Source: Nitratireductor arenosus
Lineage (GTDB): Bacteria > Pseudomonadota > Alphaproteobacteria > Rhizobiales > Rhizobiaceae
Reading direction: 5' to 3'
NCBI RefSeq assembly: GCF_009742725.1
Contig: NZ_WPHG01000001.1
Span: 1,028,001-1,092,000 of the forward strand
DNA length: 64,000 bases
Part shown: in pieces, positions 34,956 through 46,027 of the stretch
Layout: every line of letters starts with the position of its first letter
How positions within the stretch are numbered: position 1 is the stretch's first letter
Translations under genes and position numbers: made by a program
The notes under the pieces: model-generated
What the model was told of the DNA's origin: nothing
Databases searched by the model: none
The model's input: the letters and a program-made list of their open reading frames with translations, nothing else

Positions 34956-35588
34956 CTATTTCCGTGTGGCTTTGATGATCTCGAGGACCACACTGTCGTC
35001 ATCGACAGAGCTTCGATGTTGTATCAGATCGAGATTCCAAGTGTCATGCGCTAGTTTGATTTCTTCACCGCTATCGCGGCCTTTGTGGAACAGCGCCCGC
35101 GTGCCGGCCACAAGCCACGGCTCGGTGAGCGTCAAAAGGCGCGGCAGCGGCGCCAACGCGCGCGCGGTGACGATGTCCGGAGACACCGACGATTCGACGA
35201 CGTCTTCGATCCGACGTGCCACGATGTCCGCCCGTGGCGCGAGGTCCGACAGGGCATTTTGCAGGAAAGCCGCCTTTTTCCGGTTGCTTTCGACCAGTTT
35301 CACCGCCACGTCGGCGCGGTCGTGTGCAAGAATGGCAATCACGGCGCCTGGAAAGCCGCCACCGGACCCGAGATCGGCCCATCGCCGGGCCTGGGGCGCG
35401 ATGCTGAGGAGCTGCGCGCTGTCGAGTATGTGCCGCCGCCACAACCTATCCAGGGTCGATGGCGCAACCAGATTGATCCGGCGCGCCCATTTGCAAAATA
35501 CCGTTTCGAACCGCCGTAGCCGTTCGAATGTTTCACGTGAAACGGGCCCGGCCACGCGGCACAAGGCCTGGTAATCGTCCTCGCTCAC
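34956..35588 (-). CDS. rsmG: 16S rRNA (guanine527-N7)-methyltransferase RsmG
   Basis: SAM-dependent methyltransferase of about 210 residues. [29 protein letters not shown] is the N-terminal helix pair, [18 protein letters not shown] the SAM loop, and [12 protein letters not shown] and [12 protein letters not shown] complete the fold. The GTG start (35588-35586) overlaps the mnmG stop as GTGA, so it is translationally coupled. A parS site lies inside its 5' coding part, where it spells VSRET. Confidence 0.95.
35529..35544. other. parS site 1 (inside rsmG)
   Basis: TGTTTCACGTGAAACG, 15 of 16 bases of the bacterial parS consensus TGTTTCACGTGAAACA. It is embedded in the rsmG coding sequence. ParB binding site. 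Confidence 0.92.
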
Positions 35589-37459
35589 GCCGCCGAACGC
35601 CCCCGGCGCGGCGCGCTGGCCCGCAGCTGCGCGATGATCAGCGCGATCGCGGCCGGCGTCATGCCCTCGACCCGATAGGCCTCGGCCACCGATTCGGGCC
35701 GGCTCCGTTCCAGCTTCTGCCGCAATTCGTTGGATAGTCCCGCAATGCCCGCATAATCCAGCCCTTCCGGAATCGCGAGCTGCGACTCGCGCTTCATCAA
35801 TGCGATGTCCGCGGATTGACGTTCGAGATAGACGGCATAACGGGCCTCGGTTTCCAGGATCTCGGCAATCCCGGTACCGATGCTGTCCAATTCGGGCCAG
35901 ATCCGCGACAAAGCCTGAACGGACTGGTTCGGGTAGGCGAGAAGATCGTAAGCGGAACGGCGTACCCCATCCTGATTGATGGCGATCCCGGCGCGTGCAG
36001 CCTGCGGCGGCGTCAGGGAAACACCCTGACACGCCGCCCGTGCCCGATCGAGCGCTTCCGATTTGGCTGTAAACGCTGCCGCGCGCTCGGACCCGGCAAT
36101 GCCGAGTGCGATTGCTTTCGGGGTCAGACGCTGATCGGCATTGTCGGCCCTCAACGTCAGACGGAACTCCGCCCGCGAGGTGAACATACGATAGGGTTCC
36201 ATCACGCCGCGCAGCGTCAGATCGTCGATCATCACGCCGATATAGCATTCGCCGCGGCCGAATTCGGCCGCCGGCAGGCCGGCAACGAGACGGGCGGCAT
36301 TCAGCCCGGCAACCAGGCCCTGAGCCGCCGCCTCCTCATAACCCGTCGTTCCGTTGATCTGGCCGGCGAGGAAAAGCCCCGGCATTTTGCGGGTTTCCAA
36401 CGACGCCCGCAATTCGCGCGGATCGACATGGTCGTATTCGATCGCATAGCCCGGCTGCACGATCGCGGCATGCTCCAGCCCGGGGATCGTCCGCACCAAG
36501 GCATGCTGCGCATCTTCCGGCAGCGAGGTCGAAATCCCGTTCGGATAGACCGTCGGATCGTCAAGACCTTCCGGTTCGAGAAAAATCTGATGACCGTCGC
36601 GATCGCCGAATTTGACGATTTTGTCCTCGATCGACGGACAATAGCGCGGGCCGACACTATCGATCCGGCCGGAATACATCGCCGAACGATGCAGGTTCGC
36701 GCGAATGACGGCATGGGTCTCGTCCGTCGTGCGGGTAACCCCGCATTCGATCTGCGGTTGCGCGATCGCCGCGGTAAGGAAGGAAAACGGCACCGGCTCG
36801 TCGTCGCCTGGCTGCATTTCCAGCCGGGCCCAGTCGATCGTACGGCCATCGAGGCGCGGCGGCGTCCCGGTCTTGAGCCGCCCGAGTTGCAGCCCAGCCT
36901 GTTGCAAGGCCTCCGAAAGACCGTAGCTGGCCTTCTCGTTCATCCGCCCGGCCGGTATGCGGCGCTCGCCGATATGGATCAGACCGCCGAGAAACGTGCC
37001 TGTGGTCAGCACCACTGCCCGGCATAGGAGTTTTTCACCCGAGGCCAATACGATACCGTTGATTCGGTCGTCCGCCCGGTCAAATCCGACCGCCTCGCCC
37101 TCCACGATGTCGAGCCCGGCCTGCACCGCAAGCGCATTCTGCATCGCCAGACGATAGAGCTTACGGTCTGCCTGCGCGCGCGGGCCGCGCACAGCCGGCC
37201 CCTTGCGGCGGTTGAGCAGGCGGAACTGAATTCCGGCCTTGTCCGCCACGCGGCCCATGAGCCCGTCCAACGCATCGATTTCGCGCACGAGATGGCCTTT
37301 TCCGAGCCCGCCGATTGCCGGGTTGCACGACATTACGCCGATTTTGTCCCGGGCAAGCGTCAACAATGCTGTCTGCGCGCCGGCGCGCGCCGCCGCCGCC
37401 GCGGCCTCGCAGCCGGCGTGACCGCCGCCGATCACCACTACGTCGTATGTCGATCCCAT
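35585..37459 (-). CDS. mnmG: tRNA uridine-5-carboxymethylaminomethyl modification enzyme MnmG (GidA)
   Basis: FAD protein that with MnmE installs cmnm5 on U34 of several tRNAs. About 624 residues: [74 protein letters not shown] and [17 protein letters not shown]. The C-terminal MnmE-binding helices include [36 protein letters not shown] 37459 is used because GGAG lies 6 bases upstream; the GTG before it is too close. The 167-base gap to mnmE holds three parS sites. Confidence 0.98.
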
Positions 37460-37528
37460 CACTGTCTCCGAAATCGGAGGCGACAGATGCGCCGAGGCGC
37501 CCGTCTTGTCAAGAAAACACCCGTACGA

Positions 37529-37544
37529 TGTTTCACGTGAAACG
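37529..37544. other. parS site 2
   Basis: TGTTTCACGTGAAACG between mnmE and mnmG, identical to site 1. Confidence 0.92.
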
Positions 37545-37566
37545 GTCGGAGGCGGGAGCGACCTGG

Positions 37567-37582
37567 TGTTTCACGTGAATCA
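37567..37582. other. parS site 3 (variant)
   Basis: TGTTTCACGTGAATCA, 22 bases after site 2. It shares the TTTCACGTGAA core and differs in the last four bases (ATCA). The flanks (GGTG...CACC) extend the symmetry outward. Confidence 0.8.
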
Positions 37583-37613
37583 CCCGCTCCGACACCGCGG
37601 TTCGGAATTACGA

Positions 37614-37629
37614 TGTTTCACGTGAATCA
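37614..37629. other. parS site 4 (variant, contains the mnmE stop codon)
   Basis: TGTTTCACGTGAATCA, identical to site 3. The last three bases (37627-37629) are the reverse complement of the mnmE TGA stop, so the site and the gene end overlap. Confidence 0.8.
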
Positions 37630-42621: not shown

Positions 42622-43158
42622 TCAGAACGGCTTGACGATGACCAGGATGACGATCGCGATCATCAGAACCGTGGGAACTTCATTCATCAATCGCCAAAAC
42701 CGCGCCGGCCGCTGATTGCGATCTTCGGCGAAACGGCGCACGGCCGCCGAAAAATAGCCATGCGCGCCCGACATCGCAAGAACCAGCGCAATCTTTGCGT
42801 GCAACCAGCCTCCCGAAAACCCGAATCCCTGCCAGGCGAGCCATAGGCCCAACGCCCAGCTCGCCATCATTGCCGGGTTGATGATCGCCCGCAAAAGCCG
42901 GCGTTCCATCACCTTGAAGGTTTCCGATTGGGCCGAGCCCGGCGCCGCGTCGCAATGGTAGACGAACAGGCGCGGCAAATAGAGCATCCCAGCCATCCAG
43001 GATATCACCGCAATGACGTGGAAGGCCTTGATCCAGAGATAGTAGGCCGACAGGTCGACCGAAAAAAGCGCCAGAACCGCGAGAGCCAGAACGACCAGCG
43101 CGACAACGGCCCTGCTCAGCGGCGCCACCTTTGCGGACGATTTTGTCGGTTCGCTCAT
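42622..43158 (-). CDS. hemJ: Protoporphyrinogen IX oxidase HemJ
   Basis: 178-residue membrane protein of the HemJ/CopD-related family that oxidises protoporphyrinogen IX in bacteria lacking HemG and HemY. Four membrane helices and the conserved [25 protein letters not shown], with the functional His near residue 47, are present, plus [20 protein letters not shown] and [18 protein letters not shown]. It overlaps hemE by 4 bases (ATGA), giving a two-gene heme operon next to rho. Confidence 0.93.
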
Positions 43159-44183
43159 GCCCGGCCCCGAACCAGCGCGACCATCTCCTCGACATGCGCG
43201 ATCGGCGTGTGCGGCGTGATCCCATGTCCGAGGTTGAAGATCAGCGGCCCTTCCGACAGCTCCCCGAGAATGCGGTCGACCCCCGTACGAAGCGACTCCC
43301 CGCCCGCGACCAGCCGCAGCGGGTCGAGATTACCCTGCACGGCACCGTCGCCTTGCAGGCGGCGCGCCTGTGACAGCGGCACGGTCCAGTCCAGTCCCAG
43401 CCCATCGACGCCGGTCGCCGCGCGATAACCGTCGAAACGGCTTCCCGCACCCTTCGGAAAACCGATCACCGCGATATCCGGATGCCGCTCCCTGATCGTC
43501 GCCACCATCCGCGCCACCGGTTTCACGCAGAACCGCTCGAATTCCTCCTCGCCAAGCACCCCGGCCCACGAATCGAAGATCTGCACCGTATCGGCGCCGG
43601 CCTCGATCTGGCGCGACAGATAGTCGGCCGAAATGTCGGCCAAAAGCCCGATCAACCGGTCCATAGCCTCCGGTTCTTTATAGGCAAACAGTCGGGCCGG
43701 CGCCTGGTCGGGCGTGCCGTGTCCCGCGATCATGTAGGTCGCGACCGTCCACGGCGCGCCGCAAAAGCCGATCAGCGTGGTTTCAGACGGTAGGGTTCGC
43801 CGCAATCGCGACACGGTTTCATAGACCGGCGCCAGCCTTTGGTGAAACTCGGAGTAATCGAGTTCTGCAATCTCCTCCGCTCTGATCGGCGTCATCAGTG
43901 GCCCCTTGCCTTCCTCGAAGCGCAAATCGCGGCCGAGCGCATGCGGAACCACCAGAATGTCGGAAAACAGGATCGACGCGTCAAAACCGAAACGACGGAT
44001 CGGTTGCATCGTCACCTCGACCGCCAGATCGGGATCGTAGCACAGATCGAGAAAGCTCCCGGCTTTTTTCCGCACCTGTCTGTATTCCGGCAGGTAGCGT
44101 CCGGCCTGCCGCATCATCCAGAGCGGCGGCGGATTGAGGCTTTCGCCTTTTAAGACGCGGATCAGCCGCCGGTCATTGCCCAT
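43155..44183 (-). CDS. hemE: Uroporphyrinogen decarboxylase
   Basis: Cytosolic enzyme that decarboxylates uroporphyrinogen III to coproporphyrinogen III. 342 residues: [17 protein letters not shown] at the N-terminus, the catalytic Asp in [39 protein letters not shown] and [26 protein letters not shown] lies upstream of the ATG. Its start borders the presumed chromosomal origin. Confidence 0.98.
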
Positions 44184-44586
44184 GCGAAATCCTTCCAGTT
44201 ACGGACTCAATTAAAGAAAGAGATTCGAGAAGGAAACTTTTTGTTCTTCTATGACTCTGTCGAAAACGGGGATTGGCACCAGTCCCCAGATTGTCGCGGC
44301 GCCCAGGTGCCGCGCGGTGTCGACACGGCGGCACGCTCCAGTCTGGTGATTATGGGGAATGTCGAAAATATCGCTTGTTTTTCAGTATGTTGAAAAAGAG
44401 AAAAAATCCTCCTGAAATCAGGGCACAGTGGAAGCTGCGGCCAGCCCACCGAGTTCTCAACACCCTTGCGATCTTGTCCCGACAGCCCTGGATTGTGGAA
44501 GACTCGGCATCTGATACAGTCGGCTTCGCCAGGCCGGTCCCCGGCTCGGGCTTATCCACATTTCCCAACAGGACCGCCGAGCCCCT
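44184..44586. other. Probable chromosomal replication origin (oriC)
   Basis: A 403-base gap without genes between hemE (leftward) and ppsR (rightward). This is the position of oriC in Caulobacter and several rhizobia. It has a perfect DnaA box (44552-44560) and three copies of TGTYGAAAA (44258-44266, 44360-44368, 44388-44396), each 7/9 to the DnaA box complement. Other 7/9 boxes are TTCTCAACA (44454-44462) and TGTGGAAGA (44494-44502). Four GANTC methylation sites (44204, 44222, 44253, 44501) and an A/T-rich stretch (44355-44410) are also present. Genes on both sides point away from it, and parA, parB and parS are nearby. Identification is by synteny and motif, not experiment. Confidence 0.78.
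44552..44560 (+). promoter_or_regulatory. Perfect DnaA box
   Basis: TTATCCACA, the high-affinity DnaA-binding 9-mer, 26 bases before the ppsR start within the presumed origin. Confidence 0.85.
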
Positions 44587-45408
44587 GTGAACAGACCTCA
44601 GAGTTTCTTCCATCTCCATTTGATATCCGACGCGACCGGCGAAACCCTGCTCGCGGCCGGCCGGGCTGCGTCCGCGCAATACAAGGACGCGCGCGCCGTC
44701 GAGCACATCTATCCGTTGATCCGCACCGAGCGGCAGTTGCAGGCGGTGTTGGACGAGATCGACGCCGAACCGGGCATCGTTCTCTATACCGTCGTCGACG
44801 AGACGCTTGCGCGGACGCTCGACGAACGCTGCGCGGCGATGGGCCTGCCTTGCGTATCCGTGCTCGAACCGGTCCTGACCGTGTTCCAGTCTTATCTCGG
44901 CGCCCCCGCCGGCCGGCGCGTCGGCGCCCAGCACGCGCTCGACGCCGACTATTTCCGGCGCATCGACGCGCTGAATTTCACCATGGATCACGACGACGGA
45001 CAGCTTCCCGCCGACATCGAGGAGGCCGACATTGTTCTGGTCGGCATCTCGCGCACCTCCAAGACACCGACCAGCATCTATCTGGCCAATCGCGGCATCA
45101 AGACCGCCAATGTGCCGATCGTGCCGGGCGTGCCGGTGCCCGAAGCCCTGTCGCAGGCGAAAAAGCCGCTGATCGTCGGGCTGGTCGCCTCGGCCGAACG
45201 CATCTCGCAGGTCCGCCACCATCGTATCCTGGGAGCCACGGCTGATTTTGACGCCGGCGCATACACCGACCGTGCCCATATCGTTCAGGAGCTGACCTAT
45301 GCCCGCCAGATCTGCACCCGCAATGGCTGGCCGATGATCGACGTCAGCCGGCGTTCGATCGAGGAGACCGCCGCCGCCATCCTTGCGCTGCGCGGCAGAA
45401 GCCGCTAG
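44587..45408 (+). CDS. ppsR: Pyruvate, phosphate dikinase/PEP synthase regulatory protein (DUF299)
   Basis: 273-residue bifunctional ADP-dependent kinase/Pi-dependent phosphorylase that switches PPDK or PEP synthase off and on. [14 protein letters not shown] opens the protein, and the P-loop-like [23 protein letters not shown] is the nucleotide site. [15 protein letters not shown] and [13 protein letters not shown] complete the family pattern. GTG start. It is the first gene on the right side of the presumed origin and begins an operon with maf, aroE, coaE and possibly dnaQ. Confidence 0.93.
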
Positions 45409-45418
45409 CGAGCCGGCC

Positions 45419-46027
45419 ATGACCCAGACAAGACCGCCGCTCGTCCTTGCCTCGCGCAGCCCGTTCAGGCGCAAAATGCTCGCCGATGCCGGAGTGGCGG
45501 TCGAGGCGCTTGCCGCCGAGATCGACGAACGCGCCGCTGAGGCGCCCCTGCTCGGCAGCGGCGCCAGCGCCGAGGATGTCGCCATGGTGCTCGCCGAAGC
45601 CAAGGCCGGTTCCGTCAGTGAAAAAAGACCGGAGGCGCTGGTCATCGGCGCCGACCAGACGTTGGCGCTCGACGGCGAGTTGCTGCACAAGCCGGCCGAC
45701 ATGGCCGAGGCGCGGCGCCGGCTTCTGCTCCTGTCGGGCAAGACGCATCAACTAAACAGCGCCGTCGTTCTGGCACGGGGCGGCGAAACCCTGTGGCGTC
45801 ACGTGTCCGTCGCGCAGATGACGATGCGCACGCTGACGCCCGATTTTGTCGGCCGGCATCTCGCCCGTGTCGGCGACAAGGTGCTGGCCAGCGTCGGCGC
45901 CTATCAGGTCGAGGGCGAAGGCATTCAGCTTTTCGAGCGCATCGACGGCGATTTCTTCGCCATTATCGGCCTACCCTTGTTGCCGCTCCTGGCCGCGCTG
46001 CGCGATCTGGATGCCTTCGATGGCTGA
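45419..46027 (+). CDS. maf: Maf family nucleoside triphosphate pyrophosphatase
   Basis: About 202 residues. Removes non-canonical or specific NTPs, or affects septation. [18 protein letters not shown] at the N-terminus, the catalytic Asp in [41 protein letters not shown] and [31 protein letters not shown]. It starts 10 bases after ppsR and overlaps aroE by 8 bases. Confidence 0.95.

Follow-up and report, generated by a model that had tools for sequence, protein, structure and literature searches.

The 403-bp gap between hemE and ppsR is almost certainly the chromosomal origin of this genome, an alphaproteobacterial oriC, and a conserved module at its hemE end (positions 44238–44275) is, as judged from sequence comparison, the probable element at which the origin is opened. 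The module combines a trinucleotide array led by T, a GANTC spacer and two tandem degenerate DnaA boxes. It is possible, though this is put forward tentatively, that the opening element was recoded together with matching changes in DnaA. How one conserved initiator opens the diverse origins of bacteria is an open question, and the DnaA-trio model rests on a central adenine and on Asn187 of Bacillus subtilis DnaA. A class without a required central adenine and without Asn187 in the DnaAs examined, in which Rhizobiales went a further step, represents a natural test of this model, feasible with known residues and short DNA scaffolds. In addition, origin finders requiring N-A-N trios would be helped to recognise such origins.

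Location of the Replication Origin

All positions refer to the window, the whole stretch of 64,000 nucleotides that was analysed, which comprises bases 1028001–1092000 of a 1.44-Mb contig in a 4.8-Mb assembly. The initial annotation had proposed an origin between the diverging genes hemE and ppsR. This assignment is supported by a sign change of the skew (on the own contig and in two closed relatives, one of them noisy), by parS-like sites, by enrichment of DnaA boxes and by a constant gap length. Moreover, the position between hemE and the ppsR/maf cluster is that of alphaproteobacterial oriC. The landmarks of the locus are:

43155–44183, minus strand: hemE, open reading frame, left boundary gene
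44184–44586, no strand: whole hemE-ppsR gap, 403 bp, almost certainly oriC (skew, DnaA boxes, gap length among relatives)
44454–44462, plus strand: DnaA-box-like TTCTCAACA, two mismatches, column partly conserved
44494–44502, minus strand: DnaA box TGTGGAAGA, two mismatches, TGTG.A at least 95% conserved
44552–44560, plus strand: perfect DnaA box TTATCCACA, consensus match
44587–45408, plus strand: ppsR, open reading frame of 273 aa, right boundary gene

Within the window, the cumulative skew has its minima at 45484 (GC) and 45763 (keto), about 1 kb from the gap, and the flip is found at the same gap in the closed relative G001 and, more noisily, in G036. On the own contig, 14 of the 15 samples taken to the left have a negative keto skew, and 4 of the 5 taken to the right a positive one. 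The octamer GGGNAGGG, the KOPS consensus of E. coli, displays no clear flip on this contig, with plus/minus counts of 9/14 on the left and 5/5 on the right. In G001, 14 samples of the left arm give octamer counts of 6/27 and 25 samples of the right arm counts of 44/10, and the mean keto skew is −0.0186 on the left arm and +0.0089 on the noisy right arm (16 of 25 samples positive); here, one gap-spanning sample was omitted and the far boundary at about 1.3–1.4 Mb was picked after seeing the data. A flip far from the gap, considered after the first 20 samples of G001, was rejected because 20 more samples placed it at the gap. For G036, the octamer counts are 3/16 in 7 samples to the left and 21/9 in the next 10 to the right, with a keto skew of −0.0080 over the 20 kb immediately to the left, of +0.0255 immediately to the right, and with noisy values farther out.

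Four 16-mers at 35529–37629, 6.6–8.7 kb from the gap, differ by one mismatch each from TGTTTCACGTGAAACA, the parS consensus. Three of these sites are situated within about 100 bp (37529–37629), beside gidA and trmE. The gap itself contains six DnaA boxes with at most two mismatches, compared to a shuffle mean of 0.73 and to none of 500 shuffles reaching six. The perfect box and the several 7/9 boxes claimed before are therefore present, the former at 44552–44560 and five boxes with two mismatches at 44258, 44360, 44388, 44454 and 44494. Overlapping the conserved DnaA box TGTGGA, a possible ppsR promoter (TTGTGG-N16-TACAGT, 44493–44520) was seen by eye, which is not among the results of a strict promoter consensus scan; TTGTGGA..CATCTGATACAGTC is repeated in many related gaps.

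For comparison, gaps were extracted with hemE as the tblastn query throughout. Ten of 110 loci were dropped (one without hemE, nine without ppsR), leaving 100 gaps, of which the 96 with a length of 360–460 bp entered an unguided alignment; in a further extraction 6 of 69 loci were dropped, and in another one L177, where hemE was not found. L027, L029 and L031 were reassigned to the set of the order and L175 and L176 to Rhizobiaceae, while L187 and L188 were removed from the class set. The resulting 108 Rhizobiaceae gaps include that of the window, and L025 and L169 are one genome. Family membership of 80 named loci was assigned by organism name and hemE similarity, with no tree. Among the named genomes listed, hemE is most similar to that of Aminobacter and Mesorhizobium (up to 77% identity), in a listing that may omit records very near the own genome. 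The record of locus L077 is titled Bacillus subtilis SK6B4, yet its hemE-ppsR gap is alphaproteobacterial, with a hemE 68% identical to that of the window; the assembly is mislabelled or contaminated. The gap length is 395–412 bp in 80 of the 100 extracted gaps (median 403, quartiles 401 and 407), and despite this constancy the middle of the gap aligns poorly in large part across relatives.

A Conserved Module Adjacent to hemE

The most conserved feature of the gap is the module at 44238–44275, which the initial annotation did not contain. In the window it reads TTT TTG TTC TTC TAT, GACTC, TGTCGAAAA, CGGGGATTG, and together with its flank it can be divided as follows:

44204–44237, plus strand: AT-rich flank of the presumed unwinding element, with GANTC at 44204 and 44222 (duplex stability)
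44238–44252, plus strand: trinucleotide array TTT TTG TTC TTC TAT, putative variant DnaA-trios (leading T conserved)
44253–44257, plus strand: spacer GACTC, a CcrM (GANTC) site between trios and box (GANTC column, 93 of 94 gaps)
44258–44266, plus strand: box 1, TGTCGAAAA, copy 1 of TGTYGAAAA, a degenerate DnaA box with two mismatches to TGTGGATAA (relatives)
44267–44275, plus strand: box 2, CGGGGATTG, a tandem degenerate DnaA box (CGGGGATTA-type 9-mer after box 1 in class and family)

Among the 96 aligned gaps, 22 columns are conserved to at least 95%, and 13 of them fall into 44241–44260; the remaining ones are located in the best DnaA box (five, 44494–44499), in CAACAG (three, 44568–44570) and at 44391 (one). 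The first base of the four trios nearest to the spacer (−1 to −4) is T in 98–100% of the 68 distinct modules found among 105 non-independent ones in Rhizobiaceae, a figure favoured by the choice of the most array-like match in gaps with several. GANTC followed by T, G or C and then GT is present in 105 of the 108 Rhizobiaceae gaps. Without any anchoring, 93 of 94 Rhizobiaceae gaps have GANTC in the column of 44253, compared to 56 and 43 for the next columns. At the place of box 1, relatives carry a perfect TGTGGATAA directly after GACTC (L330) or GGTGGATAA (L111).

Nine loci dropped for want of ppsR beside hemE were re-examined together with five more, and the module is kept in 10 of these 14 (nine by pattern, L327 by eye). 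In L059, L067, L071 and L329, hemE has no module within 700 bp upstream and the locus no match to ppsR, so that the linkage of hemE and origin seems to be broken there. The distance from module to ppsR is bimodal in Rhizobiaceae gaps, about 341 or 355 bp with few intermediates, and this shift of about 14 bp apparently goes clade by clade.

Two other descriptions of the block were discarded. The exact pattern TTCTNNTTCTWWGASTCKGT, which hits 9 of the 13 genomes of the own family and none of the 284 others of the order (9 of 297 in total), is too strict and misses the diverged copy of the window itself. In a division into GATC-like 13-mers (tandem GANTCTTNT units), GANTC is present at the two outer units in no more than 40 and 52 of 95 cases.

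The conserved block can be explained by arrays found at the same hemE-proximal place in other orders of the class, for example TAG TTG TTG TAG TTG followed by about five bases (ATCCC) and TGTGGATAA-CGGGGATTA. Runs of four T-N-G trios are found in 13 of 61 class gaps on the hemE-to-ppsR strand and in none on the other (shuffle mean 0.2, maximum 1), and runs of three in 27 versus 1 (shuffle mean 6.1, maximum 11). The central base of the class arrays is T in 41, A in 33, G in 32 and C in 0 cases; as the scoring used the first T and the third G, this central base alone is free of that choice. A usable module with a spacer of 4–6 nt and TGTGGATAA-CGGGGATTA-like boxes was obtained for 43 of the 61 gaps. 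When the class gaps were anchored on nothing but the boxes, the profile came out blurred, owing to spacers of variable length (4–6 nt) and to some false anchors. GC-rich arrays exist in the class as well (TGG TGG TGG TGG in L207, L223 and L224), and hence the AT-rich part of an origin may be distinct from its trio array.

In the other families of the order, four consecutive TTN trios are found in 6 of 18 gaps on this strand and in none on the other (shuffle mean 0.5, maximum 2). With a composite score built on the class sequence, 48 of 61 class gaps, 6 of 18 order gaps and 64 of 108 Rhizobiaceae gaps rank above 95% of shuffles, and the lower values in order and family reflect the distance of the Rhizobiales module from the class form. 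Four consecutive T-N-G trios occur in 14 of the 108 Rhizobiaceae gaps, again with none on the other strand (shuffle mean 0.3, maximum 2). Thirteen of the 14 runs, of Mesorhizobium type by name or similarity, coincide with the place of boxes 1 and 2 or adjoin it, and the run of L175 lies elsewhere. The full run is present in 12 of the 13 Mesorhizobium-type gaps, as identified by gap comparison:

Place of boxes 1 and 2, TGG TTG TGG TGG TTG: L039, L040, L042, L045, L048, L053
Place of boxes 1 and 2, TGG TTG TGG TGG TTG: L055, L062, L063, L163, L165, L166

In these gaps the array is followed by ..ACC-TGTCC or similar and box 1 is not callable as a DnaA box. Accordingly, a DnaA box with at most two mismatches lies within 16 nt of the array in the window (box 1, spacer of 5 nt) and not in Mesorhizobium-type relatives. 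Two explanations offer themselves for this branch, namely loading of DnaA from the following box or a shift of the array. A box pair that reads as T-N-G repeats makes the assignment of boxes 1 and 2 less certain in the family, and the opening element was slightly downgraded for this reason, to the probable one named above. The assignment in the window is less affected, since its box 1 has two mismatches.

The block at 44238–44262 could instead be the hemE promoter with a GANTC controlled by GcrA and CcrM, and not an unwinding element. It is located 55–80 bp upstream of hemE, and GcrA binding in the class depends on GANTC methylation according to PMC3667746. This reading is nevertheless unlikely: T leads every third base on one strand and is followed by a box pair at fixed spacing, and the matching arrays of the class are T-N-G repeats with GANTC in the 8 nt before box 1 in 4 of the 43 modules outside the order. 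A sigma-70 consensus scan of 44050–44700 returned no site, and such scans miss many alphaproteobacterial promoters. Transcription and opening may also coexist in the block.

The GANTC Spacer

Four GANTC sites had been reported for the gap, and all of them are found (44204, 44222, 44253, 44501). In 524 kb of the genome, GANTC occurs 0.51 times per 403 bp, so that the gap is about 8-fold denser. Relative to shuffles, the enrichment of GANTC is 2.24-fold in the 108 Rhizobiaceae gaps, compared to 1.65-fold for the order and 1.58-fold for the class.

Given this density, and with GANTC placed precisely between the array and the box in 93 of 94 Rhizobiaceae gaps, the spacer might act as a methylation switch against re-firing while the new origin is hemimethylated, resembling Dam/SeqA of E. 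coli. A RAMA-domain match was detected in 11 of 11 genomes tested, and of 14 control genomes Caulobacter alone matches. Several observations render such a switch rather unlikely as the meaning of the spacer. Its middle base is G or C in 97% of cases, tighter than CcrM requires, which suggests that the bases themselves are read, or reflects GC content, rather than methylation alone. L026 (genome G029), a member of Rhizobiaceae, has lost the spacer GANTC (TAGTC) while its genome retains the RAMA match. Furthermore, depletion of CcrM in A. tumefaciens changed ori2 and left the duplication of ori1 unchanged, as far as reported in PMC11514494, and for Caulobacter, PMC3973325 describes CcrM as not required for initiation control.

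AT-Rich Segments and an IHF-Like Site

Where one AT-rich segment had been claimed, two are present. The least stable 45-mers of 43601–45200 are 44364–44408 and 44209–44253, the former being marginally less stable than the latter, which adjoins the module. Across the family, 93 of 104 Rhizobiaceae gaps have the centre of their least stable 40-mer at most 70 bp to the left of the spacer, and 11 have this 40-mer 113–135 bp to the right. The slightly lower stability of 44364–44408 would fit a reading in which this second segment is the active unwinding site in this species, with copies 2 and 3 of TGTYGAAAA flanking it and DnaA on the bottom strand, where the published N-A-N rule indeed holds at both boxes. 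This is quite unlikely in view of the family-wide location of the weakest duplex at the hemE-proximal module. In addition, the two boxes are not conserved, and a trio set among those matched (CAG GAG GAT) is rich in GC and thus probably due to chance.

The right-hand segment contains a further, partly conserved site:

44380–44392, plus strand: IHF-like site, TCAG-N4-TTG core, overlapping copy 3 (CAR-N4-TTR column)

The IHF consensus applied to the gap follows PMC1914354 in part. In the column of copy 3, CAR-N4-TTR is found in 52 of 94 gaps, its reverse in 25 and the full WATCAR-N4-TTR in 7, the window not being among the latter. In a zone 90–160 bp to the right of the spacer, YCAR-N4-TTR is present in 53 of 104 gaps, chiefly at 128–133, and three control zones gave 28, 0 and 2 of 104. 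The profile of this column resembles an IHF site, but the full consensus is rare in it. As an explanation of copy 3, a dyad (TTTTCA-N6-TGAAAA, with a longer palindrome in L003) was discarded, since the family profile is asymmetric beyond the core and IHF-like, even though 25 of 94 gaps match the core in reverse too. The strict form WATCAN5WTR is absent from the gap. The same holds for the CtrA site TTAA-N7-TTAA, and for this reason control by CtrA is not claimed; according to PMC1914354, CtrA sites are not universal in the class.

Trinucleotide Array and Strand

The published rule for trios demands three or more N-A-N trios no farther than 16 nt from a DnaA box, which was found in 85% of 2070 species (PMC8287927). 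For the top strand of the block, an interpretation as N-A-N trios of the B. subtilis type was rejected, because the rule does not hold at the module: the window has no run of three or more consecutive 3'-NAN-5' trios there, such runs occur in 3 of 104 Rhizobiaceae gaps, and three central adenines in a row in 2 of 27 class arrays. On this strand, five N-A-N in a row are no more frequent than in shuffles (class, 16 versus 14.0; order, 5 versus 5.2; Rhizobiaceae, 28 versus 27.6). On the opposite strand, such runs show an enrichment in the order (14 of 18 versus 5.2) and in Rhizobiaceae (58 of 108 versus 29.4), and no clear one in the class (22 of 61 versus 17.4).

The latter enrichment suggests that the array might be read on its A-rich other strand as ordinary N-A-N trios, with DnaA loading in reverse polarity. 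However, the opposite-strand runs are the complement of a T at every third base, and the published polarity would demand boxes on the other side. As the hemE side of the array has no conserved box and the enrichment is unclear in the remaining orders of the class, which have the clearest arrays, this reading is very unlikely. Read on the top strand, the module displays the polarity 5'-trios-spacer-box-3' reported for B. subtilis and T. maritima (PMC10316083), with a trinucleotide periodicity in the matching direction. According to the same source, T. maritima needs TAG repeats and E. coli DnaA binds TT[G/A]T(T).

The TGTYGAAAA Motif

The three copies of TGTYGAAAA noticed in the initial annotation are real; all of them are located on the plus strand (44258, 44360, 44388), and none of 3000 dinucleotide shuffles of the gap reaches three. 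Copy 1 coincides with box 1, and the others are:

44360–44368, plus strand: copy 2, a weak DnaA-like site, not conserved (gap alignment)
44388–44396, plus strand: copy 3 (TGTTGAAAA), overlapping the IHF-like site

In 524 kb (window and samples, both strands) the motif occurs 19 times, corresponding to 0.015 per 403 bp. Some 9-mer with one degenerate position reaches three copies in 14 of 300 shuffles, and as the motif was picked after the fact, it loses much of its statistical weight. Each copy is a DnaA box with two mismatches to TGTGGATAA. The copies are therefore three of the 7/9 boxes, which the initial annotation had listed separately.

Among relatives the motif fails as a three-copy element, judged by the conservation criterion that the initial annotation had set for it. 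In 111 gaps, a plus-strand copy is found only in that of the window (three) and in that of L003 (one), the nearest relative with a ppsR 96% identical, which keeps copy 1 alone. On the other strand, eight gaps carry one copy each (five in the set of 100 gaps, three in 11 further ones). Five of these copies are all 16 bases from the ppsR end, at a conserved box-like ...CAACAG. TGTTGAAAA/TTTTCAACA is thus a variant at a conserved box position elsewhere, which favours a weak DnaA site over a new initiator. Of the two roles that had been considered, weak DnaA site or site of another initiator or regulator, the first agrees with the position of copy 1 on a conserved DnaA box and the overlap of copy 3 with the IHF-like site leaves room for a regulator, while no evidence for another initiator was found among the gaps compared. 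To judge from these gaps, TGTYGAAAA is not one element, copy 1 being box 1 and copy 3 overlapping the IHF-like site; copy 2 is probably incidental, and an element in its own right is highly improbable. Equally improbable is a true iteron for a second, non-DnaA initiator or regulator in this species, despite the excess of copies on a single strand, since copies 1 and 3 sit on two different conserved sites, the spacing is irregular (102 and 28 bp), and neither repeat number nor spacing is kept among relatives.

DnaA Residues and Proposed Mechanism

DnaA was aligned from 28 genomes and numbered by its match to B. subtilis DnaA, checked residue by residue. In B. subtilis, Asn187 contacts the central adenine, and Glu223, the residue after Lys222, touches the spacer backbone with its main chain; at the centre of a trio, C is tolerated and T or G performs poorly (PMC10721633). 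Position 187 is Trp in 9 of 9 Rhizobiaceae, Tyr or Phe in 6 of 6 genomes from other families of the order, and Tyr, Phe or His in 13 of 13 representatives of other orders. Position 190 is Ala in all nine Rhizobiaceae and Ile or Val in the other 19. The residue after Lys222 is missing in 15 of 15 members of the order and is Asp or Glu in 13 of 13 outside it. With T and G frequent at the centre and C never, the class arrays display a preference different from that of B. subtilis.

These changes in DnaA may compensate for those in the DNA. As both coincide on one or two branches alone, they constitute a correlation without independent replicates. That Rhizobiales rewrote the single-stranded origin code of DnaA, with loss of Asn187, replacement of Ile190 by Ala, deletion in the spacer loop, T-led trios and a GASTC spacer going together, is offered as a conjecture. 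If true, the GASTC spacer would place a CcrM methylation site exactly at the point where the strands first part.

In the proposed mechanism, DnaA would bind the tandem boxes at 44258–44275 and the right-hand boxes (44494, 44552), and would be passed leftwards from box 1 onto the top strand of the array (44238–44252) with 3 nt per DnaA. The AT-rich segment 44204–44252 would thereby be opened according to the DnaA-trio principle in a recoded form. DnaA would thus read the trios of the window, and opening would start at the module.

Comparison with Known Origin-Opening Systems

A literature search, which the predicted-element supplement of PMC8287927 lay outside, gave no description of the trio variant, the GANTC spacer or the DnaA change of Rhizobiales in the sources it covered. 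With the origins of Caulobacter and other alphaproteobacteria (PMC1914354, PMC4285127), known here by description, the gap shares the hemE flank, DnaA boxes including weak ones, GANTC sites and divergent genes; in contrast to Caulobacter oriC it has neither the CtrA site nor a perfect IHF consensus.

The recruitment of DnaA to the single-stranded DUE of E. coli, which involves TTGT/TTATT and IHF (PMC10316083), is resembled by the T-rich strand 5' of the first box, with TTGTT at 44241–44245 left of box 1, and perhaps by the possible IHF-like site between left and right boxes. It differs from the module in that T leads every third base here, the IHF-like site is imperfect and the methylation site is GANTC instead of GATC.

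Similar in layout is the basal unwinding system of B. subtilis, for which trinucleotide repeats, a 5-nt spacer, tandem boxes and the same strand polarity are described (PMC8287927, PMC10721633). Unlike the N-A-N trios of B. subtilis, those of the class are T-D-G, the leading T alone being common to all in Rhizobiaceae; the spacer is GANTC, and Asn is found at position 187 in none of the 28 DnaAs. Since the rule of a central adenine does not hold, the module is not filed under the published definition of the DnaA-trio, and would work like that element in a variant form.
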